Below are positions 3,264-62,500 of a stretch of DNA of 64,000 nt, piece by piece. The DNA is from Ceratodon purpureus (taxonomy: Eukaryota; Streptophyta; Bryopsida; Pseudoditrichales; Ditrichaceae). Below the pieces are notes generated by a model. It made no database searches. It saw nothing but the letters and a program-made list of their open reading frames with translations, and was not told the origin of the DNA. Every line of letters begins with the position of its first letter. The stretch's first letter is position 1. Location: assembly GCA_014871385.1 (NCBI GenBank), contig CM026433.1:8083930-8147929 (forward strand), given 5' to 3'. The position numbers and the translations under genes were made by a program.

Positions 3264-3438
3264 CGTAAAAAAAGTGAGGCTTTATTTTGTGTGTTATTCA
3301 AAAAAAATATGAACAATTTCATAATTTAGAGCATATTAAGGTGTTTCTACAATGCAGTTGACCAACATCCTACTCCAATATTGCCAAATCAAAAAAAAAT
3401 CATCTAAGTTATTTTTAGATTAATCTTTATAATATTAA

Positions 3439-4302
3439 CCTCTAAAGTTTGAGGGTATTTTTCATCAAAACTTGCCTCAAAACAGCCCCTCTTCTAAGCA
3501 AGGTGGATTTTGCAAACTTGGGATCTTAATTAGTACATCTAACCGTAAGATCTTGTAGCTAACTTTTGTGTCTACATGTCCACCAAATCTCACATACCAA
3601 ATCTTATTCCTCACCAATTGCAAGATCGTAACGTTCAAAGTTGAAAAACAAGTGTTTTTTCCTTGCGCAAAAAGGGAAGTTACAGCAGAGTTTTGAGAGC
3701 CCAAAAAACCATTTTTGAAAGTAGATATGGAATGAGTCTCTCCATATTCTTGTTCCTAAGTGAATTAGGTACATGTCCAAAAACTATTCAAAAAAGTTGT
3801 GGAAGGTTGCCAAAAAAATCATTTTCCGCTAGGGGTATACTGAAATTATCAAACAAAGGCCGTTTTTTACAATAAAAATAGCATATGAAAAAAAATTGGA
3901 TTAAAAATCCGAACGATGGGAACATGCTCTGCTGCCTTCTCTATACACAGAAATTTTTATTTTTAAATAATATCAAAATCTCAATTTTTGGTGGAATTTC
4001 AAAGTTTCGTCTTTGGGCAGATTTTGGTAATTTTGGGCAGTTTTTGGCAGAATTTGCTACATCCACTATCATACTTATTGGCTAACTTACTTTGCAAACC
4101 TGCCCTTGGAGGAGCATTTGAGGTTCAGAGGTGTATGAATTTTTACTCCAACGTCGGATTTTAGAATAAAAAAATATCGACACGAAGCTCTCACCGAGGC
4201 CCACTTTCATTATAATTTTCATAAAATATGAGTTTAAATTGCATTTGCAGGTACATGCCCAAACTCCAAAAAAGCCCCACATTGCCAAATTGTCCTTTAG
4301 GA
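3439..4302. mobile_element. Non-autonomous piggyBac-like element (864 bp)
   Basis: TTAA flanks both ends (3435-3438 and 4303-4306). The ends read CCTCTAAAG on the left and, in reverse complement, CTCCTAAAG on the right, close to the CCCCTAAAG ends of the piggyBac element at 7765-13525. The left subterminal region shares CCTCAAAACAGCCC and AAGATCGTAACGTTCAAAG with the right subterminal region of that element. No transposase frame is present. It is best read as a non-autonomous relative lying in inverse orientation to the full element. Confidence 0.7.
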
Positions 4303-5204
4303 GTTAACATAACTCAAAATTACACATACTATAGGTGATGCCAAAACACATTTGGCTTGGACAAAAAAAATTGGGCTTCAACAAATAAAGGATAATATAA
4401 AACATTCTCATACATTTCCTATAAATTGGGTTGATTATCTACTACTTTTGAAAAAGATGCATTTAATAAACTTATAGTTTGCACTAGAATTCCTTTGACA
4501 TAAATTATTAAGTACGGGCTATATGAAAACCACAACCACAAATTAACCATTTTCTATGTTTAAAAGTTCTTTAGAAGTTAATATTTATTCCTCTAAAAGT
4601 TATTAGATAATGGACCTAGTTAGTGTTGAATTTCCTTTTAACTGAAATAATCAATTCAATAAATGGATTTGATGTTTCAGAAAAGGATTGAGTTGGCATT
4701 GGCCAATTATTTTTAAATAGGGGTTGGATATTTCACTCTAAAATATCATGATGAATTCTAACGGTGAGAGATCATAATAATTTTGTTTCCACAAAACTAA
4801 AATCCTACACAGTCACAATTCCTTTTTCTACATATGACCCACTGTGTCAACCAATTAGCTGAAGGAAATGTAATCCCAAATTTTTCTCCACAAAAAAATC
4901 ACTACATATTTTCATACACCTTAACAACAAAACATCCCATTCTATTAGATTGATCACTTCATCATTATAGAAAACTTCAAAATATAAGCATCGCTGTCAT
5001 AGAATTTAAATTAAATATCTCTTTTCTACCACTTGTGAATTTACTCACTGCCTCGAATTTCTCGCCACCTGCGCTCCACTCTATACTTTCTTCCTGTGAT
5101 ATGAGTGGCTGCTCCGACTCAATTCTTTATCTGATTTTCTTCAATGTGCGGTTTCTCTCCCTTCTTTGTCTCTCTTCTTCACGAACTTGCTCCTTCGTAA
5201 CTCT

Positions 5205-7760: not shown

Positions 7761-7776
7761 TTAACCCCTAAAGCAT
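7761..7776 (+). repeat. piggyBac left end: TTAA plus 12-bp TIR
   Basis: Reads TTAACCCCTAAAGCAT. It is identical to the reverse complement of the right end, including the TTAA target duplication. Confidence 0.9.
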
Positions 7777-8524
7777 CAACTCAACACTTTTGGTATGATT
7801 TGGGGTCTGGGCAGGCTCCCTATGATTCTATTTTTACCGGATGAAGCTGTAACTTTGGCACAGCATGGGAAATTGACATATCTTTCTAACAAGACCAAAT
7901 TTTACATTCATTGGGCCCGTAGTTAAGAAATAATTCGTGTTTAAAGATCAAAATTCAATTCAGGGCAGTTGGGGCAGGGTCATGGCCAATGGGAGTGAGG
8001 TGGAAATTCTGCCCTTCTTGGAGGGAAGGGGCTTTGAAAAAAGGGTTGGGCAGCGTTTGTAGGGGGTGACGGCAGGGGCTAATTTTGGTTCCCTGTGTCA
8101 TGGGATTCGAAACGGTTGACCTTGTTAGTGAAGAACATGTCAAAACCTCAGCAGAAACCATATGCAACTTAGAGGTGCAAATAATGTACATAAAACAAAT
8201 AATGCAAATTATGCAAATAATGTACATTCACTCAATACAAACAGAATCTGGTCATCAAAAAGGTAAGAAAATATGCAAGCCAGTGACCAATCAATTATTT
8301 TGAAAAATCTAAAAATGCTAACGACAATGTCAACTGAGTCTGTGCACATAGATAGACAGACCAATCAATTACAGTCAGAAAATCAAAGATGCTAACTACA
8401 ATGTAAACTCAGACAGAGTAGTCAATTCCACTGAAAATTTCAAAGATACCCACTACAATGTGAACTCAGCCTCATGTACACAAACAAAGAGAACATAAGG
8501 ATTTTGGGGTCCAACTGCACAGCG

Positions 8525-8960
8525 GACCGGGAGTCAAGTACACCGAGCAGCAGCATAAAGGGGCAGCATCAAGCAGTTGCAGCAACCAGCATCAGCTGCA
8601 TCACCGGAGGCTGGGCGGTGGTACATCTGGGACTGGGATAGAGAATCATCTGCAGCACGTAGGTGAGCATCCTCTGCAGCACCGGGAAGAGCACCATCTG
8701 CAGCACCGAGAAGAGCATCATCGACAACATCATTGAGAACAAGATTTGGTGGACACATTAGCATCGACGGCAGACCATCAGCATCGACAACAAGGCGGAC
8801 CGTCAGCATCGACAACAAGGCGGACGTCGACCATCGGCATCATCAAAGGCGGCAGCATCGACAGGTTCCATCGACTTCGAAACCATCATCAACACCAGCA
8901 CCAGATCAAGGCATCGACGGCATTACCAGCAGCATCGACCGGGGCAAGTGGGAATATCAC
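8525..8960 (+). repeat. Low-complexity GC-rich leader of the piggyBac element
   Basis: Imperfect repeats of about 24 bp built on GCAGCACCG and GAGCATC are followed by many copies of CATCGAC with variable spacers. The composition is very unlike the AT-rich flanks. It precedes the transposase start, so it is probably leader or promoter-proximal sequence of the transposon. Confidence 0.6.
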
Positions 8961-9066
8961 CGGCGAGCGACTAAACCATCTGCATCGACATCGACACAAG
9001 TGGGAGTGTGTAGTGAAGTGAGGTGTGCCGGCATCAAGTACACCAGCCGACAGGTAAGTGCTCTTC

Positions 9067-11877
9067 ATGGCGCCAAAAAGGAAATACAAGCACCATGCCG
9101 AGGTGGTGCGCCGCAGCATGCGCCTTGCAAACCAAGAAACTCTTCCTTCTTCTTCATCTCTGCTTCCTCCTATTACGCCTACCAGGGAATCCACACCTCC
9201 ACCTCCTCCCTCTACACTTTCAGAAGCAGAAAAGTCAGCCATAAGGAACATGAGTATGAGGGAAGTACTCGGGCTAGATGGTTTTTTTGAGTATGACAAT
9301 ACAAATGATGAGGAGTGGGGGAGGGAGTCATCTTGTGATGCCGAGTCTGAACCAGAGAATGATGAGAGAGTCATGCAAGGGGGTGGGTTAGAAGACATGA
9401 CATGGCCTCCTGAGCTACTCCACAGACCAGAGCCACGACGTCAAAAACAAAGCACACACATTCGAAGAGAAGATGGGCAGGGGAGAGGACAACCTGAGGA
9501 CAGTGTTCACGCTCATGACATTGCGGAAGGAGAAGGGGGATCTGGATCAGGTGTGGGAGGCAGGGGTTCAAGGTGCGAGGAGAGGGCGGGAGCAGTGGCC
9601 GAGCATATGCATGCGGAGGGATGGGCGGGAGAAGGTGCTCTCATGGAAGAGGAGGACAGGGCGGGGGAGTTTGAAAGTGGGCTGCATGGGTTGGCGGGTT
9701 TCGGGAGGGGGATGACTGCGGATGGCGGGTCCGTTGGGGGAGGTCGAGAGCCAAGGAGCGGGGTCGGGGAGTACCAGGGAGGGAGCGGGGGTTCTAGTGA
9801 GTTCCCGAGAGGGAGCGGGGTCGGGGAGCGCGGGGTGGGATCAGAGAGTCCCTAGGCGGGGTGGAGTCCTGGACCGGGGTCGGGGAGTTTGGATGCCGTG
9901 GGAGGGGAAGCAGGGTTGGGGACTGGGGAGGGTGGGCGGGGGCCATCGAGGCGGAACAGGGAAGTGGAGCCAGGCACCGGGGCAGTAAGGGGGGAGGAAG
10001 TAGGGGGTGACATTCCGGGGAGGGAAAGGGTGGTTGCCGAGGGTGGGTTTCCAGAGGCAGGCATGGATGGAGCGGCGTGGGGGACAGATGACCAAGGGCC
10101 TGATGGGGAAGAGAGGGTAATGGGGCATGATGGAGTTCCTAATGAGATTGTAAGAAGACCAATTCGGAGGAGACTTCGAAGGGCAGCAGTTTTTGTCGCG
10201 GAACTCAGTGATAATTCAATGGATTACGATGATGAGTATGAAAGTGGGGATGAAAGTGAGGGAGGATTGAGTGAGGGACATCGGAGAGAAGTTGATGAGG
10301 ATAATGTACGGGATGAATACGGGGATGAGTTTTGGGGCCAAGACCACTATACATATGAACCCGTTCCAAGTGCATTTCATGGAGTTAGTGGAATAATCCG
10401 TTTTTACGAAGATATGCCTACAGTATTGACTCTTTGGGAACTATTTTGGCCTTACAATTTACTCCGCAAAATTGTAAGAGAAACCAATCGGTATGCAAGT
10501 TCCATTAGAGATGTTGTGGGGAACACACTAGGGGGGAGAAATTGGATACCAATGACTATTGGAGATTTTAGAGCCTTTTTAGCTATTCACATTTACATGG
10601 GAATGAAGAAACAACCGAACATGAAAACATATTGGGAGAAGGCAGGTTCTATTTTCCATTGTCCCATAATTTCTAACATCATGACTTTGGCAAGGTTTAG
10701 GGAATTGAGAAGGTGTATGCACATTACCAATCCTGAGACGTACCGGGACATTGAGCGAGGCCAAGTAGGATATGACAAAATGCGACAGGTTCGGTGGCTC
10801 GTAAATGATATTAGGGATGTTTGCATGAGTGAATGGGCTTTAGGGGAATATGTTACTATAGATGAGATGATGATCCGATATAAAGGTTTATATTGCCCCG
10901 CAAGACAGTGCATGCCGAAGAAGCCACAGAAATGGGGCATCAAAGTTTGGTGTTTAGCGGATTCTAAATCAAAATTTGTGTACAATTTTGATATATACTG
11001 TGGTCGTGATATTGAAGAACAAATCGTGGTTGGGGTACCTAGGGGTGGGCCAAGTGTTCCACATAGGGTAGTTATGAAATTGATAGAAGGCTTAGAAAAC
11101 AAAGGCCATTGCGTGGTTATGGACAACTACTTCACATCAGTGCCTTTGTTCAAGGAATTGGCATCCATGGGAATTTTTGCAACAGGTACAACTCGGTCTA
11201 ACCGCGTTGGGCTTCCTACGTATTTGAAAACTCCTCGAAATTTTAGGAGATACCCTCAAGGATTTTTGGAGTGGAGAATGCATCGCAGTCGTGCCATGTC
11301 TTGTGTTATGTGGAAAGACAAGCGGCCAGTCCTCCTTCTATCTTCTCATGCGAATCCCATTTCTTCTCCAAATGAGCCACAAGTTGTGGTACCTCGGAGA
11401 AACGGAGCCATTAGAGAAGATATTCCCACATCCCCGGTTTTAGTGGAATACACAAAGTATATGCGCGGCGTAGATGTAGCAGATCAGCTCCGTGCATCAT
11501 ATTCCAGCCAAACACGAAGCCACAAGTGGTGGCATCGTGTTTTTTGGTTCCTAGTTGACACAACGGTGGTCAACATGTATGTGATGTATCTCAACCAACT
11601 TTCTCGTGGTAGGATTGTGGAGTCTCCCATGACTCACTTGCAATTCAAGACTAAATTATGCGAGGAGCTTCTTGAGCATTATGAACTACGATCGGACCGC
11701 GAACACGCTATTCGAGCGCATAGACCGGGTGTTCACATATTATCTCATTCAGAAATGAGGAGAACATGTGTTGTGTGCAGAGCCCGGGCGGTTCGTACAT
11801 ACTGTTTTCAATGCGACGGCCAATTCATGTGTTGGAGAAATCCAAATTGCTTTGAGATGTTCCACACGAACATCTAA
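9067..11877 (+). CDS. piggyBac transposase, one in-frame TAG at 9853
   Basis: One frame runs from ATG 9067 (basic start MAPKRKYKHH) to TAA 11877, interrupted only by TAG at 9853-9855. An in-frame ATG at 10063 could start the downstream part alone. The N-terminal third is acidic and Gly/Arg/Glu-rich, encoded by a G-rich strand. From about 10360 the DDE-type domain is complete. The catalytic aspartates are in TIDEMM (codon 10861), VVMDNYFTS (11122) and GVDVADQ (11473). It ends in a cysteine-rich zinc-binding domain (CVVCRARA, YCFQC, CWRNPNC), as in canonical piggyBac. The enzyme excises and inserts the element at TTAA in the nucleus. The stop could be a real defect, a sequencing error in a GC-rich stretch, or removed by splicing. 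A CAG/GTAAGTG donor-like site lies 14 bp before the ATG. Confidence 0.88.
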
Positions 11878-12271
11878 AAATCTCCCGCGTAGTGTACCCC
11901 GATATATAGTAGATATGTTTTATCTCCGTGTTTTCTTTCTTTTTACTTTATTTATTTTTATTTACAGTTCTCGTACTTCACCAACACATTTGTTCGATTG
12001 TAGCGTTATTCTATATTTCATATGTTGCGAATATTCTATTTCATATGATGTCCCTTATTATGTTTTTGATCAATTTATCTTTATAAAAAAAAATTAAAAA
12101 TTACTAAAATATATTCATTTAGATTTTTCATGAGTATCTAAATTTATTTTTGCCACAGACGGGACTGTCTGTTAGAGTCAAAATTTGTTGTGCAGACTCT
12201 AGGCTCCTCTTCCGGGGTCACAGCCCAAACAGGAGGGTGGTGGCCATCAGAAAAATTGAGTGGGGCGAGGT

Positions 12272-12324
<53 letters not shown>
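12272..12324 (+). repeat. G homopolymer, 53 bases
   Basis: An uninterrupted run of 53 G, followed by T and further short G runs. It lies inside the piggyBac element between the transposase and the right end. It could form G-quadruplex structures. The exact length is unlikely to be reliable in any assembly. Confidence 0.85.
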
Positions 12325-12325
<1 letters not shown>

Positions 12326-12770
12326 GGGGGGTAGAGGGGGCTTCACTGTCCCATGCGGGATTACCCGCCCCCTGGAAATGCAGAAGGGGAGGACCACGAG
12401 GGAGCGACAGAGTCCCTGGTCGGGAGGCCGCGCTGCAAGTCGGAGGCGGGGGGCTCCCACACCGAGAGCGGGTCGGGCAGTTCCCGGATGGGAGCGGAGT
12501 TGGGGAGCTCTGGGACTGGGCGGGGACAGTTTGGCGGGGTGGGGTCGTTGGAGCAGGTGCGGGGAGGCCGGGGAATGGGTGGCGGGGAATTTCCTAGACG
12601 TACGGGGAGGTTGGGGATGGGAGGGGACCGGGAAGCCAGGGTGGTATACTGAGCTGGGAAGATGATGAGCTGGGGAATGGGGCCGCATGAGGGTGGGTCC
12701 GATGGAGTGTATGAGGTGGCACTGGTTACTTTATGGCTGTCTTCCTTGGTGGCCAACGGCTATTCTACAT
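12325..12770 (+). other. G-rich segment resembling the transposase N-terminal coding region
   Basis: The G-rich strand repeats phrases seen at 9720-9860: GAGGGAGCG, CAGAGTCCCT, GGGAGCGG and TTGGGGAG/TCGGGGAG. It looks like a diverged internal duplication of the low-complexity N-terminal coding region. Open frames in several registers are a by-product of the composition and no protein is proposed. Confidence 0.5.
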
Positions 12771-13513
12771 ATCCATGAATAAAAAATCTTTCCAAATCTC
12801 CAATTAGAGTTCATTGATCATGATAATGCCTTCGCATTCATCTATCCAATTTTACTTTCATTAGTTGGCAGTTAGTATTTCCACCTCTAATCTCGGGTCA
12901 CCCTCTCCACCCATTTTTCCTTCACTGCCCCACACCAATTTACTCCACTAAATCACAGTATATGCTAGGAAATTCATATCTTTTATGGATTTGATCTTTT
13001 TTTGGTTTTTTTTTTTCCATTATTTTTTTTTAGTAGGAAGGGATGTTTTCACCGTTTGGATTTTGCAAATACAAATTTCAGGTTTGGCATTTCTACACTC
13101 ACAAAAGAGGTAGTGTATGTGTGTTTCTTGTGACCCTAATCACTTCAAATGTGATTTTTGTATACTTCCTAGTGTTGTATGGTCTTCAAATTTGGGGAGT
13201 ATACTCCTAACTGACTTTGAAAGGAAATCAGCATTGTCTCCACTCCTAAAAGGGTCGAAAAATTAGCTTATTTGGTGTTTGAATGGTGGCTGTCCCTGCC
13301 GGGCAGTACAGAAAAAAACTTTTCCATTGACTTCAAAGTTTATGATCTTGTAAATGGTGAAGACTTACAACCTGAATTTTTTTTACACATACATAAACAA
13401 GTTAGTTACTAGATCCTATGGTCAGATTCCTCGAAATAGGTGCGAATTTGGTAAATTATATTTCGAACCAAAACAGGGCTGTTTTGAGGGAAAATTTCAT
13501 GTTTTCATGCCAA

Positions 13514-13529
13514 ATGCTTTAGGGGTTAA
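13514..13529 (-). repeat. piggyBac right end: 12-bp TIR plus TTAA
   Basis: Reads ATGCTTTAGGGGTTAA on the plus strand, the exact reverse complement of the left end. Confidence 0.9.
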
Positions 13530-22545: not shown

Positions 22546-23538
22546 ACAAATGTTTTATTATTGCAAAGAAATTATGGCCAATTGAGATTTGGCTTTATAT
22601 GAATGAATACAACTCTGAAACAAATGAATGTGAAAGGATTGATTAATAGTGTACGGTATGGTTTGTAGAGGATGATGAGCCATTCATAGCTCAAGGTTCT
22701 TGTCTTTTTATAACATCAGATTCATTATATCGGAAGATTGTGAGCCTCTAAATTTAATATTTGTGTTGCTCTCCAAGCTCTAAAATGTATCCAAAATGAA
22801 GGTTAAAGTTGAGTTGAGCTAAATGTATACTGCATCAAAATCATGGAATTTTCCTAACATAACAAATATGGTGTTTTATGCATACTTTAACAAATGGATT
22901 AGTTGTATTCACACCAAAATTCACAAAAACTATTGCCATAAAGGTGCATTGAAGGATGCCACATTTTGGATTTTGGGCTCTAGTGTGCAATCAATAGTGT
23001 TGATTTTTAACATTCCTACAGTTTGATTGGTAGATTCTTGGACTTTTGACCTTCATCCTTAATATAAAGCGGCCCTTATAGTTACTAATTTGTGCTCTTT
23101 GTATTCACCAAGTCTATAAATATTTAGATAATAGAAAAGATATGTACCTTTGAACATTTTTTGTTTAATATGTGTACAATAAAGAAGAACTTATGTGAGC
23201 TATTGTAGTTGACGTTGTAGTATCTTTGCAAAATGTAGTAGAATAGATTACATTAGCTTCAAATACTTAGATTAAATGTCTAGTTGTATAAAGAGGAAAT
23301 ACATCTTTTTTCATTTGAAACTACAATTCCATGACCTCTCTTCGCCTCTATCTCTCCAATCCAACTTCAAATCAAACAACATTGACCTACATCTTGGAGT
23401 AAATTTTCTACTCCAAAGAGGTAGAGTTCAAAGTGATAGCTTCTGGAGTGAACTGTGTTGCTTCTGAAGTGCTAGTGCTAGATTTTTTGTTTGAATTTGA
23501 AATAAGAGACATTAGTTATGAATCATTTGATGCCTTAA

Positions 23539-24469
23539 TCCATAATCGGCCGTGACCATTTCTCACCAAAAACACTCTAGAAACTATCATTTCAAAAGCA
23601 AGAATAAACAAAAATAAAAAATAAAAAATCTCGCATCTCTAACCTTATGATCTGACTTAAGACTCTTAAAAGATCATGCACAAAAAAAGTCAAATTTTTT
23701 TACCACGTAGATTAGAAGATTATAGAGTTTGAAGTAATAAACATTTTTTTTTTAAAATGCTTTTAAAACATGATCAGTTGGCTTTGACTTCTCTTTGAGT
23801 AATGTTTTTGCACTATACATGTTGGAGGTTTTGAACTAAAATGATGTACATGATGTTATTTACTTATGCACCAAATTTTAGATTTAACAAAAAGCTGTAG
23901 CATTGTGAAAAACATTGTATAAGGAACACAAGTTCATATTATCATCAATACTAATGTTATTTTTTGACAAACCATTTTTTGTTAGAATTAAAATCCATGC
24001 GGTCAAAACAAAGGTACATGTCTATTCTTGGATTGGAAAGAAAGAAGAGAAAAAAAGAACAAAATATCTATCTTTTATGTGATAAGAAAAAGTTTTTCTA
24101 ATGCTTGATCAGGAAAAATGATAAAACTTTGGCTCCTTATAGAATGAAAATCTTTCACAATATAAGATTTTTTATTTATTATTTTTTTTAATCTTAAAAA
24201 TCAATCATGATAGTTACTTGCACTAAAAATCCCAAAGGTACTTGAAGGGTGTATCAAAATTTTGGAGCTACCCGAGAAGTAGGAAAAACGGCTTTAGACA
24301 CCATAAACATTTTTTTCAATGTCTTATGCATAAAAAATTATACTCCCGCAAAGCTCTTGCAATTCCCTTCATCTACAAAAAAATACATAAATTTACATCC
24401 AAAATTGACATCGTAAGAACTTGCCCGAAATTTCAAAAAGCCCATTCTAGGACTTTGGCCGTTTAGGGG
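23539..24469. mobile_element. Non-autonomous piggyBac-like element (931 bp)
   Basis: TTAA flanks at 23535-23538 and 24470-24473. The right end in reverse complement reads CCCCTAAACGGCC and the left end reads TCCATAATCGGCC, agreeing at 10 of 13 positions. Inside, TGGGCTTTTTG followed by TTTCGGGCAAGT parallels GGGGCTTTTTTGGAGTTTGGGCATGT of the 3.4 kb element when read in from the right end. The left end is eroded, so the boundary there is less certain than the right. Confidence 0.5.
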
Positions 24470-27400
24470 TTAAAACTAAGTTATAGTTAAGGCGATTCCA
24501 ATAATAATAATTTTAAAATTATGTGGTGGTTTTTTTATCAAACCATGTTAAAGGCAACTATGGTGATACTAGAAATATAGTTAAAGAGTTGAAGTTGGAA
24601 TAATTACAATTTTTTTGAAATTTTAAAAATAATTGATTATACCAAAATTCTTCAAACTTAATTATAGAATGTGAATGTTACAATAGACATGTTACTATTA
24701 AAATTTAAAGAAAAAACACTAAAAGTCAATCACCTTCATTTGACATTGTTGTATTTAACAATTCTAAAACACTTAGTAAATTGATTATCATGGGAACGGC
24801 TTCAAAAGAGAAATTTCCCTCAAGAAAAAACTAAATAATTTTTTTTTCTAAATTACATAATGTATAATATCATTCATAACATGGGAACAAAATATGTTCT
24901 TTTAGCATATCTTCTTCCAAATCACCCGAACTTCTTTTATTTTGTTAGGTTTTTAAACAAGACATTGGAAATTTTTTCCAGTTGTTGTACAAAAATGTAT
25001 TGTTGTAACATATGTATCATGTAGATTTACTTTAATTATTTGAAGTAGCAATGTCAAATTTTCAAGATAGTCTTTTGTATATTATTGAGAACATGAATTG
25101 ATAAAAATCAACAATGTAAATGTTTTAGCACATTGTAAGTATTTAGTTTTTTTAAACATTATTGTATATTATAGAAGCTATCAATTTATACTCTTGAGGT
25201 AGTTTTCTTTGTAAACTAGAAGAAGAAAATCAAAAGCATATTATATGAAATGAAGCAATTGAATTTGTGAAAGAAAAGGCAGTTGAATAATGGCACAAAT
25301 GGAAATTTATTGTCAAAATTTATCGATGAAAAGACAAAGATTAGTTGTATTTATTTGAAATATCAAAGGTAAGCTATTAATCCTATATTTTTATACTCCT
25401 CTATAATTTTATAATAATATTAAATAAATTGAAAATTATGTTAGAAATTAGGTTTGTGAAATTATTGTGAAATTTAATAGAGATGGAATTGTGGTCTTTT
25501 ATTGAATGAAAAATGATTTTGAATTTTTTTTGTGTATATAAGAAAGAGCTAGATCACGTAATTATAACACATGCATAAATTATACATACAATTTCTTCAT
25601 TTGTTGTCAACATTATTTTTTTAATACTTTTTAAGTTTAAATTATCAAAACCTTCATTGTGTCAAGTAACCTAACTATTCTACAAAATTAATGAAGAGAC
25701 TTACATTTAGGGTTTCAAATACCATAAATTTAGGACACGTTATTATGTTGAGTACATGTATATGTAATTTGATAAACCCTATACTTATTTTTAATAGTTA
25801 TTGGCAAATAGATTGTTGTTTTCAAGTTTCAACGTCGATTTATTTTCTTAGTATATAAAAGCACAATATTTGAATTTTCAAATTTTAGCGTTTTAAAACA
25901 TTACATAATTATGTACAGATATACTCTCCAAATAAATTCACAACCTTAAAGCATCATGTTTGAACGGTAGATTGGGAATTGTAACTATATATATTGTTTT
26001 TAGATTTTTGCTTTCAATTTTTTTAATTTTTAAGGTCAAAGTTAAATACTATGAAAGAATATGATTTATTCCTTAACATTTTATTGTTGAATAAACAAGT
26101 TTCAATTTAATCACAAATGTAAATATTCTCTCATGCTAATTTCTATAAAAAATCAATTTAAATACTTTAATATGATATTGTTAAAATCCTAAATGTTTTT
26201 CTAAAGTATTAAAAAACTATTTTAGGATTTTTAAAATATACACTAAGATTTAAGAATACATTTCTTAGGGTTTAAGGATTGTATTTTTAGGATTTTAAAC
26301 CATGTATTTTAGGTTTTAAAAATATGTATATTAAAATTTAAAGGTATGTATTCAAAATAATAGAGTATGTATTCGAAGATCTAATTATTCTGATCTAAGA
26401 TCTATGTATTTCTATTCAAGTTGTCTCATTTGTCTACCAGCAACATGTTCACATAAAGTATTTATTATAATCTAGAAATTATAAAATAAAATTAAAATTT
26501 TCTAAATTCAATATATATTCGATTATTTATGTATCAATGCGATTGTGGATTTTTTTTTCCATAAGTGTATAATTTTAACATATTTTAACATATACAATTA
26601 TTTGAATCTATTTTACCCCTTTGTTTTCATTATCATAAAAGATTATTTTGAATCTTAAATTTCTTAAATTTTGACATATTTTCAAAACAATTTAATACCT
26701 TTACAAATGAAACTAGCAAATACATTGTGATTCAATTTACTACATAATAGTTGAATTAGTTTATGTAGAGATTATTGAGCGCATTGGTAGAACTATAAAT
26801 CATGGTTGGATTCCATGATTTTCAACATTCTTTTTAAAAGTAGTCAAATTGTTTCAAACCCTTCATTATTTAATAATAAAAATAAAATATTATGATTATT
26901 TCGAATTTTTGTCAACAAACATTAGTACACATTCAACACCAATATTTTAGATTTCTATAGAATAATGTGTTTCTTTTAAAACTATGGCTCTATGTCATTT
27001 ATAAACAATCTTTAATTTTTAGTAGATATTTTTTAGTTTTTTCAACATGCAAATACTAAAAAATTGTTGAAATTAAAATATTTCAATACTTATGTGGCAC
27101 TTCAATATTAATTTAACGTAATTATTTTATCTATATAGATATGTGCAATTATTCATCCAGACATTGCACTTTATTGGTAAAAAAACAATAACAATTATAA
27201 TTCAAAAAAGGTTTTAAAAAATATATAGACATTATTATTATCTATACAATCTTTTGAAACAAATTAAAATATTCCACTTGATTTTTCAATCCAATAAATC
27301 ATAATTTCAATGCATGTTAATATTTTTGGAGAACTTTCAAGGTATGATAATGCATATAGAAAAATGTCACTATGTTTGATCTATAATGTAATATCAAATA

Positions 27401-35565: not shown

Positions 35566-38500
35566 GTAAGTAGAAAATCAAATCTCAAATATGAACATAA
35601 TAAAATTCCAAATGAAATAATTGCACAAGAATATTCTTCATGTATTTAAATTTAAACTTGATATTTAAAAAAATTGAAATGACACTTACTTTTAGAAAAT
35701 GACGTCTTTTATATTTGAAGTATAATTTTTTTAAATAGATGTAATTCGATTTTTTTGATTGAATGATGTTATATATATATCTAATTGGTTACATTTAATA
35801 ACAGACATTATAATAAATTGATTAGGTTCATGAGCATATTACAAAATTACAAGAAATAAGTGAGTTTGGAAGTAAGGAATATTCATTGGAACGAGCTCTT
35901 GCTCAAATGGAAAGTGATTGGCAACCTTTGATATTTGAGGTATATAAATCTATTTCTACAGTACCACAGCAAGGCCAATTTCTTTTTAGCAAAAATCAAT
36001 AAATGTGACCTCAAGGGGCTTTAAAATAGCTATTTAAAAAAACTAAAAATCCTTCATTGTTTTATTCATTTCATTTGTTTATTATTATTTATAAATAAGT
36101 TTTACGCGGCCTTGCTAAGGTTCTATGATTACAAATCAATATTTAAAAAAAAAATTGTAAAGAAGAACTTGCAAAGCTATAAATCAGTTCTTCAATTTGA
36201 AAATAACGATCATTTAAAATTTATATAAAAAATTGCATAGTTATGTTTTTGTGATATTTTATTTTATATAAGTATATAATGTACTTCAATAAAGTATTAC
36301 TAAATATCTAACATTAAATATTCAAATATAGTATTCATTATACAAAAATACGGGATGCAACATTCTTAAAGGTGGGCCAATTGAAGAAGCACAATTATTA
36401 TTGGATGAACACATTGTCAAAACACAAAATATGTTGGCATCACCCTTTGCTGCACCTTTTGAAGAACATTTAACTAGATGGTTGAACTCAGTAAGTATAA
36501 CATAAAAGATTTATTAATCATGTATTTTAAAATTGAATAAAAAAATTGAATAAAAAAATCATTCGGTTATAATCTTTTCATTTCTCATGTAATCTAAATA
36601 GATATAACATGAATTGTTTCACACTCGTTCAAGTTTAGGATAATTATAGTTGTATTTTTTACTCGTAGCTTTTATTTTTGGATATTCCCTTTGTGCATAT
36701 TGTTGACAGAGTTATTCTAATTGTTAAACAATGATGTTTTTTTATAGTTGGTAAAATTACAAAAGATTCTATCAGAATGGTTAAGATGTCAAGCGTCATG
36801 GATGTATTTAGAGCCAATTTTTGGATCTCCTGATATTATTGAACAAATGCCACGAGAAGGATCATTGTTTCATGTAACCAACAAAGTATTCCGAGCACTT
36901 ATGGCACATGCTGAAGCCAACTTTCCAAGGATGATGGATGTATGTCATATTATTACTTCAAATACATAATAAAGTATTTTTTTAAGACCATAATTGTATT
37001 ATGATAAATAGCAAGAAATATTAAATGAGGTTTTAAGAAATATGTTTCTATTTAACCATATAGATGCTATACAAAGTATGTTTTTTTTTAAATTCCAGTG
37101 GATTTTTAACATAGGCACCCGCAGATCCTGATCTCCTTGAACAATTATATTCAAGTAATGAAAATCTAGACATTGTACAAAAAGGACTTAATCATTATCT
37201 TGAAACAAAACGATTGGCTTTTCCAAGATTTTTCTTTTTATCTAATGATGAACTATTGGAAATTTTATCGGAGACTAAAGATCCACTTCGAGTGCAACCA
37301 TTTTTAAAGAAGTGTTTCGAAGGCATAAATGCATTAACATTTCAAGAAAACTTGGATATCACTCATATGTTGAGTGTTGAAAAAGAAATTGTTGAGTTTA
37401 CAAGAACTACTAATCCAAGAGCTGCTAAAGGCAATGTTGAACGTTGGCTAATTGAAGTTGAACGCATGATGCGTGAAACATTAAAGGTAGTGGTTGTTTC
37501 AATTTAATGAATAAAAACTCAATGAATAATACATATTAATTAAAAAAATATATAGACATATATAGAAAATTGATCATTATAATTTAGTGTGTTATTTTAT
37601 TATACTATATATAATAATAATAATAAATGATTTAATATAAGATTTTAAGATTATTTTTTGGGATTATTTGTTGTATATCAATAGGTGGTGGTACAACGAG
37701 CAGCCGCGGATTATGCTGTGAAAGAACGTGGGGCATGGATTCTGATATGGCCTGGTATGATTGTATTGTGTGGTTCTCAAATGTATTGGACAAGTGAACT
37801 TGAAGAGGCAGTTGATGCAGATGGTGTCAAAGGTCTTGCAAGATATGAAAAACAATGCACTATGCAATTACAAGAACTAGTTCAACTTGTAAGAAATGGA
37901 TTTATACACAATTGCATAATACAACACTTATGAAAATATTTCTTTCTCCAAATTCTAACATTATTCGAAATTTTACCTATCATTGTTTCATTATTTATAT
38001 CATTTGAAATAGATCATTTATTCTCAATAATTTCATTTAACCCCTAACTATCCTTAAAACCCAAAAAGGGTTTTTGCAAATTTTGGGCAGCCTAGATGGG
38101 GAGGTTAAAAGTAATATTTTTTTTTCAATATTTTTATTGTGTGTTCCCTTTATGGTAAGGTCCATGTAGTAAAATTTTTGAAACCGGATTCCAATTTCAG
38201 AACCTTCATCTAGAAATTTTAGGTTTCAAGTCCAAAACGGGCAATCTAAAATTAGGTCTTTTTAAAAAAACAAAAATTGAAATATGTTCATAACCAAATG
38301 GTCCAAATCACTACTCAAATTCCGTAGTGACTAAAGTCAAAAAGTTTACCAATTTTACAAGGGCAGCCTCCAAAACTTACAAAGACAAGCTTCAAAGTTT
38401 TTAGTAATTTTTTAGTATTTCCTTTAATTTTTTTTCAAAATTCAAGATTTTTGAATTTTTCAAAATCTGATTTTTTTGAAAATTACAAATCTATAAAGGT

Positions 38501-41500
38501 ACCTACTCACTGTTCACTTTTTTCTAAGCTCACATATTGTTTTTGTAATGCATGTTTTACAATTTTGTCAATTTTATACCTTCTTATAGAAAATAATTTG
38601 CATGAAGGTCTAAAAAGCGTTTTGAGTCCCTAAACTTTTGCATGAGCATACCTAACCTAGTTAGCTACATGAAAATTATATGACCAAAATGTTTGAGGTA
38701 ACAATCTTCAAGTCTCCCTTTGCACCGTGGAAGCAATGCCTCTCAAGCAATGCCAAAAAAAACTTTTGCACAAACTTTGAATGTTACGATCTTAAAAACG
38801 ATAATCATCCAACGGCCAGTTTTTAGAACTAGAACTACAAATAGGCTTAGATTCAAGATCTTACAGTTGAAAGTCTTTAAAAAACATTTAAAAAAAATTA
38901 CACCCTTGGAAGTGCATAGAGGTTAAAAATCGCAGTTTTGAGGTTTCAAGCTTCCAAAAACACAAGGAAAGTTAGGGATTAACAATATATTTGAATTAAA
39001 ATATATATATATATATATATATATAAATGAATAGTATTTTATTCATATTACTAGCTTATTATACATTTAAACTATGTCCAAAGGTTCGAGGAGATTTAAG
39101 CAATATGGAAAGGTTAACTATAGGAGCTCTTGTAACTATTGATGTCCATGCTCGAGATGTTGTAACATTATTGGTAGAATTGGGAATTGATAGTAAACAA
39201 GATTTTGATTGGCTAAGCCAACTGAGATATGCACTAGAAGATGGAAATGTATGTATTAAATTATCAAAACACATATAATTCATTTTTGATACTATTTGAA
39301 GTTATAACTATATAAAAATATAAAAATAAAATCAATTAAAAATGAAAGACTTTCTAAATTATTGTGTTATTATTCATTATTATAAGATCTAATATTCGAG
39401 AGTATTTTAAAATAAATAAATAACATTCATCATACTATTTATTAATTAATATTAAAAAACAAAAGTACATAGATTTCTGAATTATTTTATTTTATTACTA
39501 ATTGCAGTGTTTAGTCAAAATGGTTAACGCATGCCGAAATTATGGATATGAATATTTGGGTAACAGTAACCGTCTTGTCATTACACCTTTGACCGATCGA
39601 TGTTATCGCACATTGATGGGAGCATTGCATTTGAATCTTGGAGGAGCTCCAGAAGGGCCTGCTGGTACCGGAAAAACAGAGACAACAAAAGATCTTGCAA
39701 AGGTGATATAGTACCAAAAAAATACGCACAATATGAGATATTAGCACTTTTTATTCATATAAATTTTACTAAAATGTTCATTAAATTCCCAAATCTTTCT
39801 TCAATACTCCACTTTCAATCAAATTCTTGAACATGACAACACAGTCTATGTAGAACTCTTAATAACCTTCACAAAATAACCAATAATAATAAATAAAATA
39901 ACCATTTAGAAAGGTATTTAAAAATGATTATGAACAGATAAAATTGGAAATGGGATCTATAGATGGAGCCACACCACCAATATTGTTTTTGCTTCGTTAC
40001 TTAGGGCCACATGGATTCAAGCACAATCAATCTAATGTTTTCTTTATTGTTTTTCCTTCTAGAACATTGCTTGTACTAGAGAATATCATTTGTAATCATG
40101 ATGTATGTTATTTTATGTATTTAATTTATTTTAATAAATGAAATTAGATATTTTATTTTAAAAAATCGAGTTTATTCATAAATGATTTTCATATAATAGT
40201 TTTTGAAGACATTTCAAATACCATGGTCATATTTTTAAATGTCAAACATATAATTCAATGTTAATTCATGTATTTTTGAACGTTTAAAAATAAATAAAAA
40301 TCAATAGGTTATTTAGTCAAAAGTTTCTAAAATATATATTAATTATTTCATAGACAACTCACGTCTTTTTTCATAAAATAGGCTTTGGCAATGCAATGTG
40401 TTGTATTCAATTGCTCCGATGGTTTGGACTATTTAGCAATGGGAAAATTCTTCAAAGGTTTAGCTGCATCGGGCGCATGGGCTTGCTTTGATGAATTCAA
40501 TCGAATTGATGTTGAAGTCTTATCTGTTATTGCACAACAAATTTTAACCATTCAAAGAGCAATCATGGACAATGTTTCACATTTTATGTTTGAAGGAACA
40601 TACTTACCACTAATACCAACATGTACAAGTTTCATTACCATGAATCCCGGTTATGCGGGACGAGCCGAACTTCCAGATAATTTGAAGGCTTTGTTTCGAA
40701 CAGTGGCAATGATGGTTCCTAATTATGCTATGATTGGGTAAAAAATAACATGGGTTATATTTTAAAATAAGTTTTTGACAAAAACATTGATATTTAGCAA
40801 GTATAATATGCCAAGATAGCATGACTTGGATTCTATGTTTTTTCCTTATAATTTGAGTTTTATTTTTTAAATAAATTTAAGGCTCATCAAACTAAAGGGA
40901 TTTATCTATAAGAGGTTTATCTATTAGAGTCAATATTATATACAAAGACCTTGGTGGTTTCTTAATTCAAAGAAATCTAGTTTATTTATTTTTTTATTTT
41001 TTTTGACCGCATGATAAATATCTTTAAATTCATAAAACTACTGAGCTCATTTGTACCCAAAAACGACTCTGGTAGAAAATCTACCAAATTCTTTTTATTT
41101 ATATTGTTATTTAGAGAGAATAAAATTCATGGTGATTTTGCTGAATTTAGAATAGCTCTATTGTAAATGATACATAATTTTCAAAATGTTATAGTTTCAA
41201 CTATATTAAAATTTAATAAAAATTAAACACTTGTTTTGTATAATTCCAGAGAAATTACATTATATTCTTTTGGATATTTAGAAGCTCGAGACATGGCTAG
41301 AAAGTTAGTAGCTACTTATCGACTTTGTAGTGAACAATTATCATCACAGGTATTGAATAATTAAGATTAATAATGATAAATTTTTTAATACTTGTTATAT
41401 CTGGTTGATTAATATATAAATTTTATAGAATTTAAACACCATTTTTTTTTTTTTAATCAGAAAAACCTTGCAACTTCCCAAGATTTTAATGAAAATTTGT

Positions 41501-56500: not shown

Positions 56501-59500
56501 TATTATTTAACCCTTAAACGACATTTTGGGTCCTGGGTGGGCAGCCCGGACAGAATCGAAATTTTTTTCCCCCAAAAAACAGCTCTGCAGTGTACTGTAG
56601 CGCCGCACTGTAGCACTGTACCATTGGAGCAGAGCTCAACTTCAGCTGCCCCAACCTCAAAACTTGTTCAATTTGATAACTTTGATTGCTTACCAACGAT
56701 TCCACAATCTCTCAAATGAGGCGAAAATTTGGAATCTAGATGGCTTTTTCAATAGCTTTCCAATGCAACAAGTCTTGCTTGATTTGGTTGAGAAATGAAT
56801 CTTCTCCCTCCAATTATTCCTTTAAACCCAGCCCCTCGGGCTGGGTCTGACGTTTAAGGGTTAATAAAGACTATGACTAAAAGTGATGTTTGTGATGAAT
56901 ACAATACCGTACGTTGATAGCAGTTTTGTTCATAAATGAAGGAAAAAAATAAAATAAAATAAAAAATTAATGATGGAAAAACAAAAATATCATAAATTAT
57001 TCTATGTAATATTTGTCTATTTTTAATCCATCTAAAGTTACTTTTAGTGTTTTTTAGAAATAAGCACAAAAACCAACAAATTAAATTTTTGGGAGATGAA
57101 ATTATTTTTCCATTAAAAAATATATATTTATTCAAGGCTAAAAAAACCTCCTATTAATGTACAGTAGATTGTAAATCATGTAATAATCCAAATAATGTAG
57201 ATTTTCTTAACTAGACAAAACAAGTTTAACTGCAACAAATTCATGCTACGAATATTGCAAATATTAAATTATTTTTAAAAATTTATTTGAAAATTTAACA
57301 AGCTTATATGATTCGTGGAGATAATTTTGTGCTTGAGTTAACCATACCATTGAATTGTAGGTTTTGTCGCAATCAAAGATTCTAGGAGAAGACATTCAAG
57401 AAAAACAAAAGGTAGCTGAAGTCACTGAAAAGATTATTGATACGACTAGAAATTCATACGTCCCTGTTGCTTTTACAGCTACAATTTTATATTTTTGTGT
57501 AGCAGGTAAAACAAACGAAAACTATATACCTTTAAAAACAAATTACAAAAAAAAAAAAAAAAAAACTATAGACCTTGATTTTTCTAGTGTAATAATTTTA
57601 ATTTTACACAATATATAATAGTACAAGAAAAATGTTTAACTTTTTAATTTTGCATCAACAGAAATGTGCAACATAGAACCTATGTATCAATATTCACTTC
57701 CATGGTTTACGGATTTATTCATATTTTCGATTGCGCATAGTGAAAAATCCAGTGATCTTGATACGCGGTTGAAAATACTCACTGAACATTTTATCTACAA
57801 CTTGTATTGTAATATATGCCGATCTTTATTTGAAAAGGACAAAATTCTATTCTCATTTGTTATGGCTATAAGAATGGAATCAGCTGCTGGAAAAGTGGAT
57901 ATGGAAGAGGTTCTATTTTTCACATTTTTGTTTCTAATTCTTCAACTAATATAAGAGATTTGACTTTTTAAGTTTATTTTATTATTTAAAATTATATTGT
58001 TTCAAATACAAGTGGTTTACACAAGTGTAGAAGTTTAAAATTCATCCATTGGGTTATTTGATACAATTAATTTGGCTTTGACTAAAATGAGTTACAATGC
58101 TGAACCATTTGAAGAACAAGGTAGTTGGCCTTGCAAGATCAGTAGATAGTAGGTTCAAAATGTTGTTAAGAAAAAAAGATCTCATGAATAATTTATATGC
58201 AAAAAGATATACGTGTTGTAAATTTATCATGAATTCTTGATCTTTCCTTGTACTTGTATAAAGGGCATGTTTACACCAAAAAATAGGCTCTAATCCAAAG
58301 TCACAAGTAATACCTTGGTCTTCAATGGGAGCATTATAAGTGAAATATCATTCTTGAAACAAGGAAATTTTACTTGAGTTGTCGCCCAATATTTTGATGT
58401 AGATCCAAAAATAATTGTTACAAACCATAGTAAAGGAATGAAAATTATAAAACAATAGTTTTTTTTAAAGAAAATCATGAATCTTTAAAAATTCAAAAGT
58501 AATTTTTGATTATTCTCAACTCTGTTGTCTAATTTTACCATCATATTTTTATTTTCTGGATTTTTTTCCTTGCTCTTAGTAGATTGTATAAAAACAAAGC
58601 CCAAAATGTTAAAATTCATCCTGCTAATAATTCTAATCAAATTTTTCATTACCCAAAAGTAGCTTATAAAAAATCTCTTTCTATGAATATGTCTACGTTT
58701 CTCATTATTTGATGACAATATGAGTTTCAAAACCAAAAATAAATAAATAAAGAATTGGGTTGGAGCCAAAGAAAAAAACGTGATTTACTTTTCAGATATA
58801 GGATTTCAATCGGATTTTTCAACAACGAAATAAATCATGAGGTCCAGTGCTTTTTTTTATGAAAACCTGAAAATAGGAACAAAAGATATTTATTAGAGAA
58901 CACTCTCCACTTCTCTTGGCATGAATAGGCCTTGAGATTCTTTGTACAAAAGTTTTAAAATTGCATGGCCAAATAGAAAATGAGTGCACCATTACTATTG
59001 CAAAGAGTCATGATTACTTAAGATTATTTTGAGCCTTCTCTTTTTAGGAATCTCAATTTTTAAGGTTTGAAAAATGCACAATGTAGATACTTGAGACTCA
59101 TGTTTCCAAGTGATTTTTTTCAATAATAATTTTGAAATATGATCTGATTTTTAATTGGTGAATCACTTTAATATGAAATGAAGCATTGGTGAACCACAAA
59201 TTTTCTCTTCTAAACAAATTTTTAAAAAACAGAGTAAATTTTCCATAAAAATTATAGAGTACATCTGGACTGCAAAAATTGACTCAATTCATCATCATCG
59301 AGAATATGATTATGGATTAGGTACAAGGATTAAATCAAGAATCATGAAAATCAAACAATTGGGAATTTAAAATTTAATATATATTTATTAAAATATTATG
59401 TTATCATTTTCTTTCGGTCACTAAATACAAATACTTGGATATATGGGTTTTGTAGTTTCGTTTTCTTCTCACTGGAGGCATAGTTCTTGAAGCAGAGCCT

Positions 59501-62500
59501 CCAAAACCTGATATTCCATGGCTTACAGAAAAAATGTGGGGCGAGTTTTTTAGACTATCTAAGGTAAAAACACAACCACAACAAAAATAAAAAATAAAAA
59601 TATTAATGACAACGATGATAATATATTCTAAAATAATTAATCATTGTTATATTTGATTTTGAAAAAAAATGTAATAGACTAATAGCATTCATAGTTATGG
59701 TTTCAATTACTAGAACTCTAAAACATAAACCCTAAAACTTAATAATTATTTTCCATTTTTTTGACTAAAAAATAAACAAAGGACTTGTACTAATAAGTAG
59801 TTTAAAAATTTAAAAATATGTGCATCTATGTAGTTTTTATTTTAAATTAAATACTTTTAGTTGCTATAACTCAAAGTTGGAAACACATTATTAACTTTCT
59901 AAAAAAATTGCATTAATATGAATCATTAAACTTTAGACTAAGAATATGATGTATTTTATATATTGGAATTTGAAAACCAAAAATTAAAAAAATACTATGA
60001 CATATATTATTTGTGAATTGGGTTCTTTAATAAAATTTATATGAAGTAATTATACCTTCCACAATGATTTTGATTTAAGAGTCCCAAATGAAAGTCATCA
60101 TGTTTAGACATGACGTATATTAAATACATTTATGATAATGAATGAGACATGAATTTTGATGCACTTTTTATTAATCTATAAGCTTATTGTTAATATACAC
60201 ATAGATTTTTCTAAGATATGTTATTAAAATCACTAAATATAAAATATAACCATGATTAAATTAATTAGAAAATACCAATAAACTTACTTGATGACATTTT
60301 CTATTAAAAATCATGGATTTTTAGTATGTATATGATGAATGTTTCTAACTATACTAATATCTATAAATACTTTTTTGTGGCTTAGTTTAAACCTTTCATG
60401 GACATTTATCAAGATATTGAACCAAAACAAGAACTATGGAGGATAATTTTTGATAGCCCATCACCCCAGGTGCGTGTGATGTTATTGATGGGTTGTATAT
60501 ACATATGTTTTATAAAATATTCAACTTCAATTTATATAACTTATTAAACCATATAAAAAATCTATACATAATTATATTTGTATTATGAGTTTCATAAAAT
60601 TCACGAGATTAATTTAGAAAATTTAAATGATGGAATATAGAACGAGAAGTGGCCTGAACCATGGAATGAATGCTTATCTTCATTTCAAAAACTTTGTCTT
60701 TTACGGTGCATACGACCAGATAAGGTTTCAATGATCTGTTTCAAAAATATATTTTATTTTGATATTTATAAAATTGAGAAGTTATGAATAATTTTAAAAA
60801 AATTCAAAGTTATAGTCTATTTTTCAAATAATTTAAATTTATAATAAATAATTATTTGGTAGATTGTTTTTTGTATTGCTTTAGTATATAGAAAAATTAT
60901 AAAGAAACTGGGTTATTAGGCTTTTTATAATTCATGAAAAAGAAGGAAAACAAGTTCATTTTTAATCGTGACCATTTGAATTCTAAAGTATTATTTTATA
61001 TTTAATTATTCAATGACATTTATATAATAATACCAAAATTTTAATCTGATTCATTTTCTTTCATCTTCATTTGGTGAGCTTATACAGATTGTACTTTCGG
61101 TGACCAATTATGTTGCCGGAGCTATAGGTCAAAGATTTGTTGAGCCCCTTCCTTTAAATCTAGAAGCTTGTTATAAAGACTCGGGAAGTGTTGTTCCTCT
61201 TGTTTTCATTTTATCGGCTGGTTCCGATCCCATGTCAGCATTATTAAAATTAGCTGCAGATAACGGTGCAAAATTACAAACAGTTTCACTCGGTCAAGGC
61301 CAAGGACCTGTAGCAACGGCCATTTTGAAAGAAGCAACAGCTGATGGATCATGGGTTGCGCTACAAAATTGTCATTTGGCAATATCATGGATGCCCACAT
61401 TTGAAAAATATTGGGAACAAGAATTAACAAGTAAAGAGAAAGTGCATGATAATTTCAGATTGTGGTTGACAAGTTATCCGTCGGAACATTTTCCGGTAGC
61501 TGTGCTACAAAACGCGGTCAAAATGACAAATGAACCTCCAAATGGATTGAAAGCAAATTTGACCGGAAGCTATTTGATGTATCCCATTTCAGATGAGGAA
61601 TTCTTTGGAGGTTGTACGAAAGGAAAAGTGTGGAGGCGCATGCTTTATGGACTATGCTTTTTTCATGCTTTTGTGCAGGTATTATACTTGATGTTTTTTT
61701 CTTCTTCAAAATAAATAACATGTAGGTTATAAAAGTTCATTGGTAGAATGTTTTTTAGAAATTGAAATAAAAAGATCATCGTTAAAAATATATCAACAAT
61801 GTTCTGAATTTTTAGATAGTGAATCGACACTTTAAGTTAATCATATATATATATTTTTTTGAAAAACATAATTTTTTTTAAATCAATAATAGTTTTCATT
61901 CTCATCTTCAAAGTATTAAAGGTGATTGAAAGTTATTTATTGCAACATATATAATAATTGGTTTATGTTTTGACAAATTTAATAACTATGTTTGAAAATA
62001 GGAACGAAGAAAATTTGGTCCATTGGGTTGGAATATTCCTTATGAATTCAATGAATCTGATTTGCGAATCAGTGTTCGACAACTACGAATGTTTTTGGAA
62101 GAATATCCAGATTCGGTAAAATTGAAAACCATAGACTAGATTTCATAAGAATTCATATAATTAAATATAAAATGGATGGAAACATTTCTTGAATTCTTTG
62201 TAAAATCAAAATAAATCATAATGTGCTCTATATAACAACAGGTGCCGTATAAAGCATTAAATTATCTTACTGGTGAATGCAACTACGGAGGGCGTGTAAC
62301 GGATGATCACGATCGTCGTACCCTTGTAACAATACTTGCAGCATATTATTGTGAAGAAATTAATAATGATGATTTTTCTTTTTCAGAAAGTGGAATGTTT
62401 CGAGCTCCACCAGATGGTAAAAATAAAATAGTGATTTTTCAAGATTAAAATTGATATATTATGCAGTTGTTCAGTCATATTTCTTTACAAAAAAAATATT

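Follow-up and report, generated by a model that had tools for sequence, protein, structure and literature searches.

A piggyBac-type transposon and its kin in the genome of the moss Ceratodon purpureus

The piggyBac transposon is a standard tool of animal genetics, and its story is mostly told without plants. The T. ni element is about 2.5 kb long, targets TTAA, has ends starting with CCC and carries internal 19-bp repeats; asymmetric subterminal repeats are a trait of T. ni piggyBac and are not regarded as defining the superfamily. Here we describe a 5,769-bp piggyBac element of the moss Ceratodon purpureus, located at positions 7761-13529 of a 64,000-nucleotide stretch of DNA (contig CM026433.1, positions 8,083,930 to 8,147,929, assembly GCA_014871385.1), hereafter the window, and compare it with T. 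ni piggyBac (PDB 6x67, 6x68), with piggyBat of Myotis lucifugus (PDB 9c0f) and with small elements recorded from angiosperms.

The superfamily passages of a 2015 survey (PMC4438587) place PiggyBac among those present in all groups studied, land plants included, and a review, in its part on the subject, lists PiggyBac miniature inverted-repeat transposable elements (MITEs) in angiosperms (PMC10004981); the passages concerned in these two sources describe no full piggyBac element. Excerpts of further papers give 1,230 PiggyBac pieces amounting to 122 kb in a fern (PMC6890710), one 75-bp piece in a grass (PMC8319324) and the isolation of piggyBac from plants too (PMC10813416). The survey and the angiosperm review weaken the view of the initial annotation that piggyBac is not standard in land plants. 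Literature searches viewing mostly top-ranked results found nothing on moss piggyBac elements; because piggyBac appears in land-plant tables and lists, absence from print is not claimed. One paper mentioning both piggyBac and Ceratodon (PMC10619864) was rejected, the word used there being piggybacking.

The window element is almost certainly a cut-and-paste DNA transposon of the piggyBac superfamily in the nuclear genome of a land plant. It is a true member of this known superfamily and has been recently mobile; it is ordinary in kind, and notable for its host and for the abundance of its kin.

The window element and its transposase

The complete ends first proposed for the element were confirmed, with TTAA on both sides and identical 12-bp inverted repeats starting with CCC (Table 1). 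The repeat CCCCTAAAGCAT occurs in exact form twice in the 64-kb window, each time as an end of the element, which also holds the window's sole exact inverted pair of the form TTAA-12 bp and 12 bp-TTAA with members up to 10 kb apart. Because 5 of 50 windows resampled by a Markov-1 model held one such pair by chance (the other 45 had none), the ends taken alone are modest evidence and insufficient by themselves. The reality of the element is settled by the transposase that the ends enclose and by a sibling copy of 5,789 bp that shares the boundaries and the flanking TTAA. In what follows, relatives fetched from the same genome carry L numbers, the sibling being L034, and the contigs of that genome carry C numbers; the window lies on C13.

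The transposase frame runs on the + strand from an ATG at 9070 to a stop codon ending at 11877, and is interrupted by a TAG at 9853-9855 that the initial annotation missed, leaving 261 codons upstream and 673 downstream. The second part matches Pfam DDE_Tnp_1_7 (E 1.1e-71), its other Pfam match being a weak one to Phage_lipoprotein, below its cut-off, and a Pfam search of the 261-aa N-terminal part gave no match. The motif GRESSC...LEDMTWPPE was detected by a script search in 7 of 21 frames, those of L010, L022, L025, L027, L029, L034 and the window. All three catalytic aspartates and the C-terminal cysteine-rich domain claimed from the start were recovered, and a fourth aspartate aligned too; the corresponding catalytic residues of T. 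ni piggyBac we take to be D268, D346, D447 and D450. The C-terminal domain is recognised on sequence alone.

In a PDB search the window protein matched T. ni piggyBac at 3.6e-25 and piggyBat at 6.8e-22, the other seven of the nine chains listed having E 0.2 or worse. A profile built from a family alignment of 22 proteins (A1, the window protein and proteins of the genome) matched the same two at 1.3e-51 and 3.1e-57, respectively, and these were the sole chains at E 0.01; piggyBat, the best profile match, aligned through the C-terminal Cys/His domain. With T. ni piggyBac the moss element shares the DDE_Tnp_1_7-type core, the four aligned aspartates, the C-terminal cysteine-rich domain, the TTAA target and the CCC-starting ends. 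It differs in the region preceding the catalytic domain, which is about 450 residues long where that of T. ni, judged by the start of the alignment, has about 130, and in its length of 5.8 kb. Unlike the T. ni element with its 19-bp repeats, it yielded no exact repeats of 9 bp or longer beyond the 12-bp ends in a search for exact repeats in its terminal 200 bp, and by this measure asymmetric subterminal repeats of the T. ni type were not found. From piggyBat it differs in host, in length and in the long N-terminal region of the moss transposase.

Table 1. Coordinates of the piggyBac element, its parts and the other piggyBac-type elements in the window.
Feature	Position	Strand	Remark
Left TTAA target-site copy	7761..7764	.	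Read in window sequence
Left terminal inverted repeat CCCCTAAAGCAT	7765..7776	+	12 bp exact
5' non-coding part	7777..9069	+	
N-terminal transposase part, 261 codons	9070..9852	+	Contains motif GRESSC...LEDMTWPPE
In-frame stop TAG	9853..9855	+	Sibling L034 open at same place
Remainder of transposase frame, with Gly-rich stretch followed by catalytic domain DDE_Tnp_1_7	9856..11877	+	Stop codon 11875-11877
First catalytic Asp, counterpart of T. ni D268	10861..10863	+	D in 28/28 same-genome relatives, T. ni piggyBac and piggyBat
Second catalytic Asp, counterpart of T. ni D346	11122..11124	+	D in 28/28 same-genome relatives and both animal proteins
Third catalytic Asp, counterpart of T. ni D447	11473..11475	+	D in 28/28 same-genome relatives and both animal proteins
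Fourth conserved Asp, counterpart of T. ni D450	11482..11484	+	D in 28/28 same-genome relatives and both animal proteins
C-terminal cysteine-rich (Cys/His) domain	11767..11874	+	Six Cys and one His invariant in 22-protein alignment
3' non-coding part	11878..13513	+	Includes 53-base G run, 12272-12324
Right terminal inverted repeat CCCCTAAAGCAT	13514..13525	-	12 bp exact
Right TTAA target-site copy	13526..13529	.	Read in window sequence
873-bp probable non-autonomous piggyBac-type element	3435..4307	-	End 4307 like L027, L031, L029 left ends; end 3435 degraded
939-bp non-autonomous piggyBac-type element	23535..24473	-	Terminus 24473 like left ends of L025, L024, L010 and others
946-bp non-autonomous piggyBac-type element	38037..38982	+	Right part like L030 right end
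358-bp piggyBac-type MITE of another lineage	56507..56864	-	56507 is the counterpart of the L018/L019 right end

The run of 53 G in the 3' part is 18 G long in L034, a difference that may reflect either slippage or an assembly error.

Copies, lineages and derivatives in the moss genome

A search of the genome with the DNA of window 7765-9040 listed 47 matches, the window itself included (the best 40 of 915 candidates were scored). One match on C10 was 97% identical over the whole query, weaker full or partial matches among those listed were 75-94% identical, and 18 matches cover the first 227-233 bases of the query alone, at 91%. Non-autonomous relatives have the element's first 233-237 bp in common with it at about 91% identity. 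The C10 copy, L034 (C10:16398803-16404591), has TTAA at both ends and flanks unrelated to those of the window copy. The two differ by 61 mismatches in 5,738 aligned bases, or 98.9% identity (MAFFT; 97.5% by BLAST, which counts gaps), none of the indels falls within the reading frame, and in L034 this frame is open over 935 aa. Over the last 620 codons the ratio of replacement to synonymous substitution rates (dN/dS) for this pair is 0.27. If mosses accumulate about 9e-9 substitutions per site each year, the two copies would have split, to an order of magnitude, half a million years ago.

Empty target sites were recovered for L018, which is inserted in a repeat of the same genome. When its flanks were joined at one TTAA and searched, 41 matches were obtained (best 40 of 253 candidates scored), 40 of them crossing the join, and in all four paralogs fetched a single TTAA was read straight through.

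The genome (362.49 Mb in 151 contigs) contains at least 116 DDE_Tnp_1_7 matches, on C1-C13 and C53; this is a lower bound, with 116 of 998 candidates scored and the window's own copy absent from the list. Counted from the table, 23 of the 116 have a stop inside the domain match and 93 have none. Loci of about 10 kb each were fetched from this list (L009-L033, n = 25), chosen partly for long frames or equal scores, and every one of them carries a stop-to-stop frame that is 906 aa or longer. In 19 of these 25, ends starting with CCC were found at TTAA on both sides, several being alike over the first 8-9 bases only; the ends of L011, L012 and L014-L017 did not resolve. Two of the shorter loci L001-L008 have such a frame, namely L004 and L007, which coincide with L009 and L010; L005, L006 and L008 have shorter frames, and the motif used did not pick up L001-L003. 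At L011, on C1, two open transposase frames of 951 aa stand in tandem, 5.3 kb apart. With the elements masked, the 101,755 bases that flank the fetched loci held 4 further termini in 3 loci, 3 of these termini starting with TTAA.

Near-identical pairs are found in other lineages as well: L018 and L019 (C9 and C10) are 99.1% identical over 3.9 kb, L013 and L020 (C1 and C5) 99.1% over 5 kb, and L012 and L013 99.9% over 5.9 kb. The last two are separated by about 13 kb on C1, so that this pair may stem from a local duplication. Crude dN/dS values for the last 620 codons of 12 pairs were 0.11-0.37 in nine and 0.61 for L016/L017, and were undefined for L012/L013 and L012/L020, with zero synonymous change in these codons; the whole-frame value of 1.16 for L012/L020 rests on ten changes. 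In a tree of 31 rows the window joins L034 with support 100/100, several deep lineages occur within the genome, and the branch uniting the 29 genome rows has support 87/91. The tree includes two animal proteins only, with branches of more than 7 changes per column, and L008 and L016 are long; it shows diversity within the genome and cannot place the origin of the plant lineages.

The genome was searched for copies with the same ends, as the initial annotation had proposed. The 26-bp left end of the family, TTAA included, was found 838 times with up to 3 mismatches (430 + 408), and the reversed pattern used as a control was not found at all; the 100 left ends listed are all exact and lie on C1-C5. 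Four copies sharing only the left end with the window element were inspected. Three are elements of 1,074-1,094 bp with TTAA and matching ends, 90-92% alike and with no open stretch longer than 82 aa, and the fourth, L042, had no right end within the 1.25 kb fetched. Such derivatives resemble the angiosperm PiggyBac MITEs, which in the review passages cited above are non-autonomous and are assigned by ends and target-site duplication (PMC10004981); the moss differs in that its genome also has full-length relatives with matching ends.

Four short piggyBac-type elements lie in the window (Table 1). All except that at 3435-4307 are TTAA/inverted-end pairs in the 150-1,200 bp range, and resampled windows held no such pair in 97 of 100 cases and one in 3 of 100. 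Both 41-42-bp ends of the 358-bp MITE are 85-90% identical to those of L018/L019. The best 40 of its 305 candidate matches in the genome, the window's own included, are all at 92% or above, 38 of these 40 span bases 1-358, and the listed copies are 92-95% identical to that in the window. This MITE sits between two apparent exons, near 56484 and 57361 by eye, of a dynein heavy chain gene (+ strand, 37115-61711; Pfam DHC_N2 and D6, with matches at 37115-37504 and 61031-61711). A dynein heavy chain fits a plant with swimming sperm.

C6, of 110.5 Mb, makes up 30.5% of the genome. It carries 19 of the 116 listed domain matches (35.4 expected, binomial p 0.0008) and 5 of the 40 listed copies of the 358-bp MITE (12.2 expected, p 0.015). 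Because these counts come from best-scoring lists and not from censuses, the scarcity of piggyBac on C6 relative to its length is a lead only. The parts of two papers that deal with the C. purpureus genome give 360 Mb with U and V chromosomes of more than 100 Mb each (PMC8000587), and sizes of 358 and 349.5 Mb (PMC13120521). No telomere array was found at three contig ends (one each of C1, C2 and C6, 400 bp each), the C2 end having three TTAGGG. A search for relatives in IMG/VR with the family alignment gave 48 stretches fitting the pattern, of which tblastn supported none as a relative.

Activity, host and alternative explanations

The behaviour of the element may be depicted as follows. The transposase, of about 935 aa, has a long low-complexity N-terminal region ahead of its DDD catalytic core and ends in a Cys/His domain. 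It would bind to both ends of the element, cut the element out and place it in a TTAA, with a TTAA left on each side. The window copy would have arrived recently, the in-frame stop having been gained by it or by its source, and its ends would still be movable by a related intact transposase. The derivatives would likewise be mobilised by these transposases, which may be active at present.

The initial annotation had described a full element whose intact ends and catalytic core suggest recent activity. The ends and the catalytic core stand, and recent mobility is borne out by the 98.9% sibling in an unrelated flank, by the near-identical pairs in other lineages and by the empty sites for one of these; the intactness of this copy does not stand, given the TAG in its frame. 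Several points weigh against the picture as a whole. An uninterrupted frame is present in L034 and missing from the window copy, which by its sequence is probably not autonomous; since the N-terminal motif lies upstream and the catalytic core downstream of the TAG, a full-length transposase would not be expected from it, barring splicing or read-through. Just one other match among those listed in the search with the left part was as close as 97%, the others being at 77-94% and mostly partial. The 10 synonymous and 17 replacement changes separating the window copy from L034 are too few for a firm selection test, and in the N-terminal part dN (0.0112) exceeds dS (0.0045). The search for empty TTAA sites, which succeeded for L018, found only the window insertion's own two flanks when these were joined and searched in the genome, because the flanks are single copy.

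Taking the genome as a whole, we lean, with reserve, towards piggyBac having resided for long in a land-plant lineage, where it has diversified and is still mobile. There would be several old lineages of long-N-terminal transposases, some of them with fresh copies, which together give rise to a large set of small TTAA-flanked elements (five piggyBac-type elements in the 64-kb window), and a giant chromosome, probably a sex chromosome, would have fewer copies than expected from its length. The best surviving alternative is a dead fossil family with no member active now. It would account for the stop in the window copy, the internal stops in 23 of the 116 listed domain matches and the spread of the derivatives, the three elements of 1.08 kb being 90-92% alike and the listed 358-bp MITEs 92-95% identical to that of the window. 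We consider it doubtful in view of the pairs at 98.9-99.9% identity with open frames and of the frames of at least 906 aa at all of L009-L033, loci chosen partly for that feature.

It is improbable that the TAG is spliced out or read through and that the window copy still makes a full-length transposase. The stop does fall in a low-complexity, Gly-rich stretch with a conserved part on either side, and spliced piggyBac genes exist elsewhere, but L034 and the 25 loci L009-L033 (the latter chosen partly for long frames) keep a single long open frame, as coding sequence would.

A piggyBac-derived gene domesticated by the host, in place of a transposon, would fit the constraint on the last 620 codons in 9 of the 12 pairs, although constraint of this size is also expected of transposases that stay active; at the window locus this explanation, to which we give very little credence, is already contradicted by the TTAA and exact inverted repeats of the window copy and L034 in unrelated flanks, by the many copies and by the stop in the window copy.

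The host is a plant, as the initial annotation had it. Chlorophyll a/b-binding domains (PF00504) gave 85 genome matches at E 0.001, with one on C13 at 1.0e-39, and the LEAFY domain (PF01698, SAM_LFY) gave 7, the best at 9.4e-28 and one on C13 at 1.2e-7. LEAFY is characteristic of land plants and the algae related to them, and these photosynthetic streptophyte genes share contigs with the element. A contaminant or chimeric scaffold, with animal, fungal or algal piggyBac DNA joined to a plant assembly, had been named as what could refute the find, and the G+C content of 0.45-0.50 in the three parts of the element, against 0.27 in window 14000-64000, might suggest it; it is most unlikely and already contradicted by these plant genes on C13 and other large contigs, by the spread of the domain matches and listed left ends over the contigs, by the MITE lying between what look like two exons of a gene in the window and by L018 lying within a repeat of this genome.

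If piggyBac is indeed a long-term and still mobile resident of C. purpureus, a moss that has many derivatives and many near-identical copies with open frames would extend the natural range of piggyBac. It would also offer a plant-adapted transposase to test, and would add a marker for the gain and loss of mobile DNA in mosses with giant sex chromosomes.

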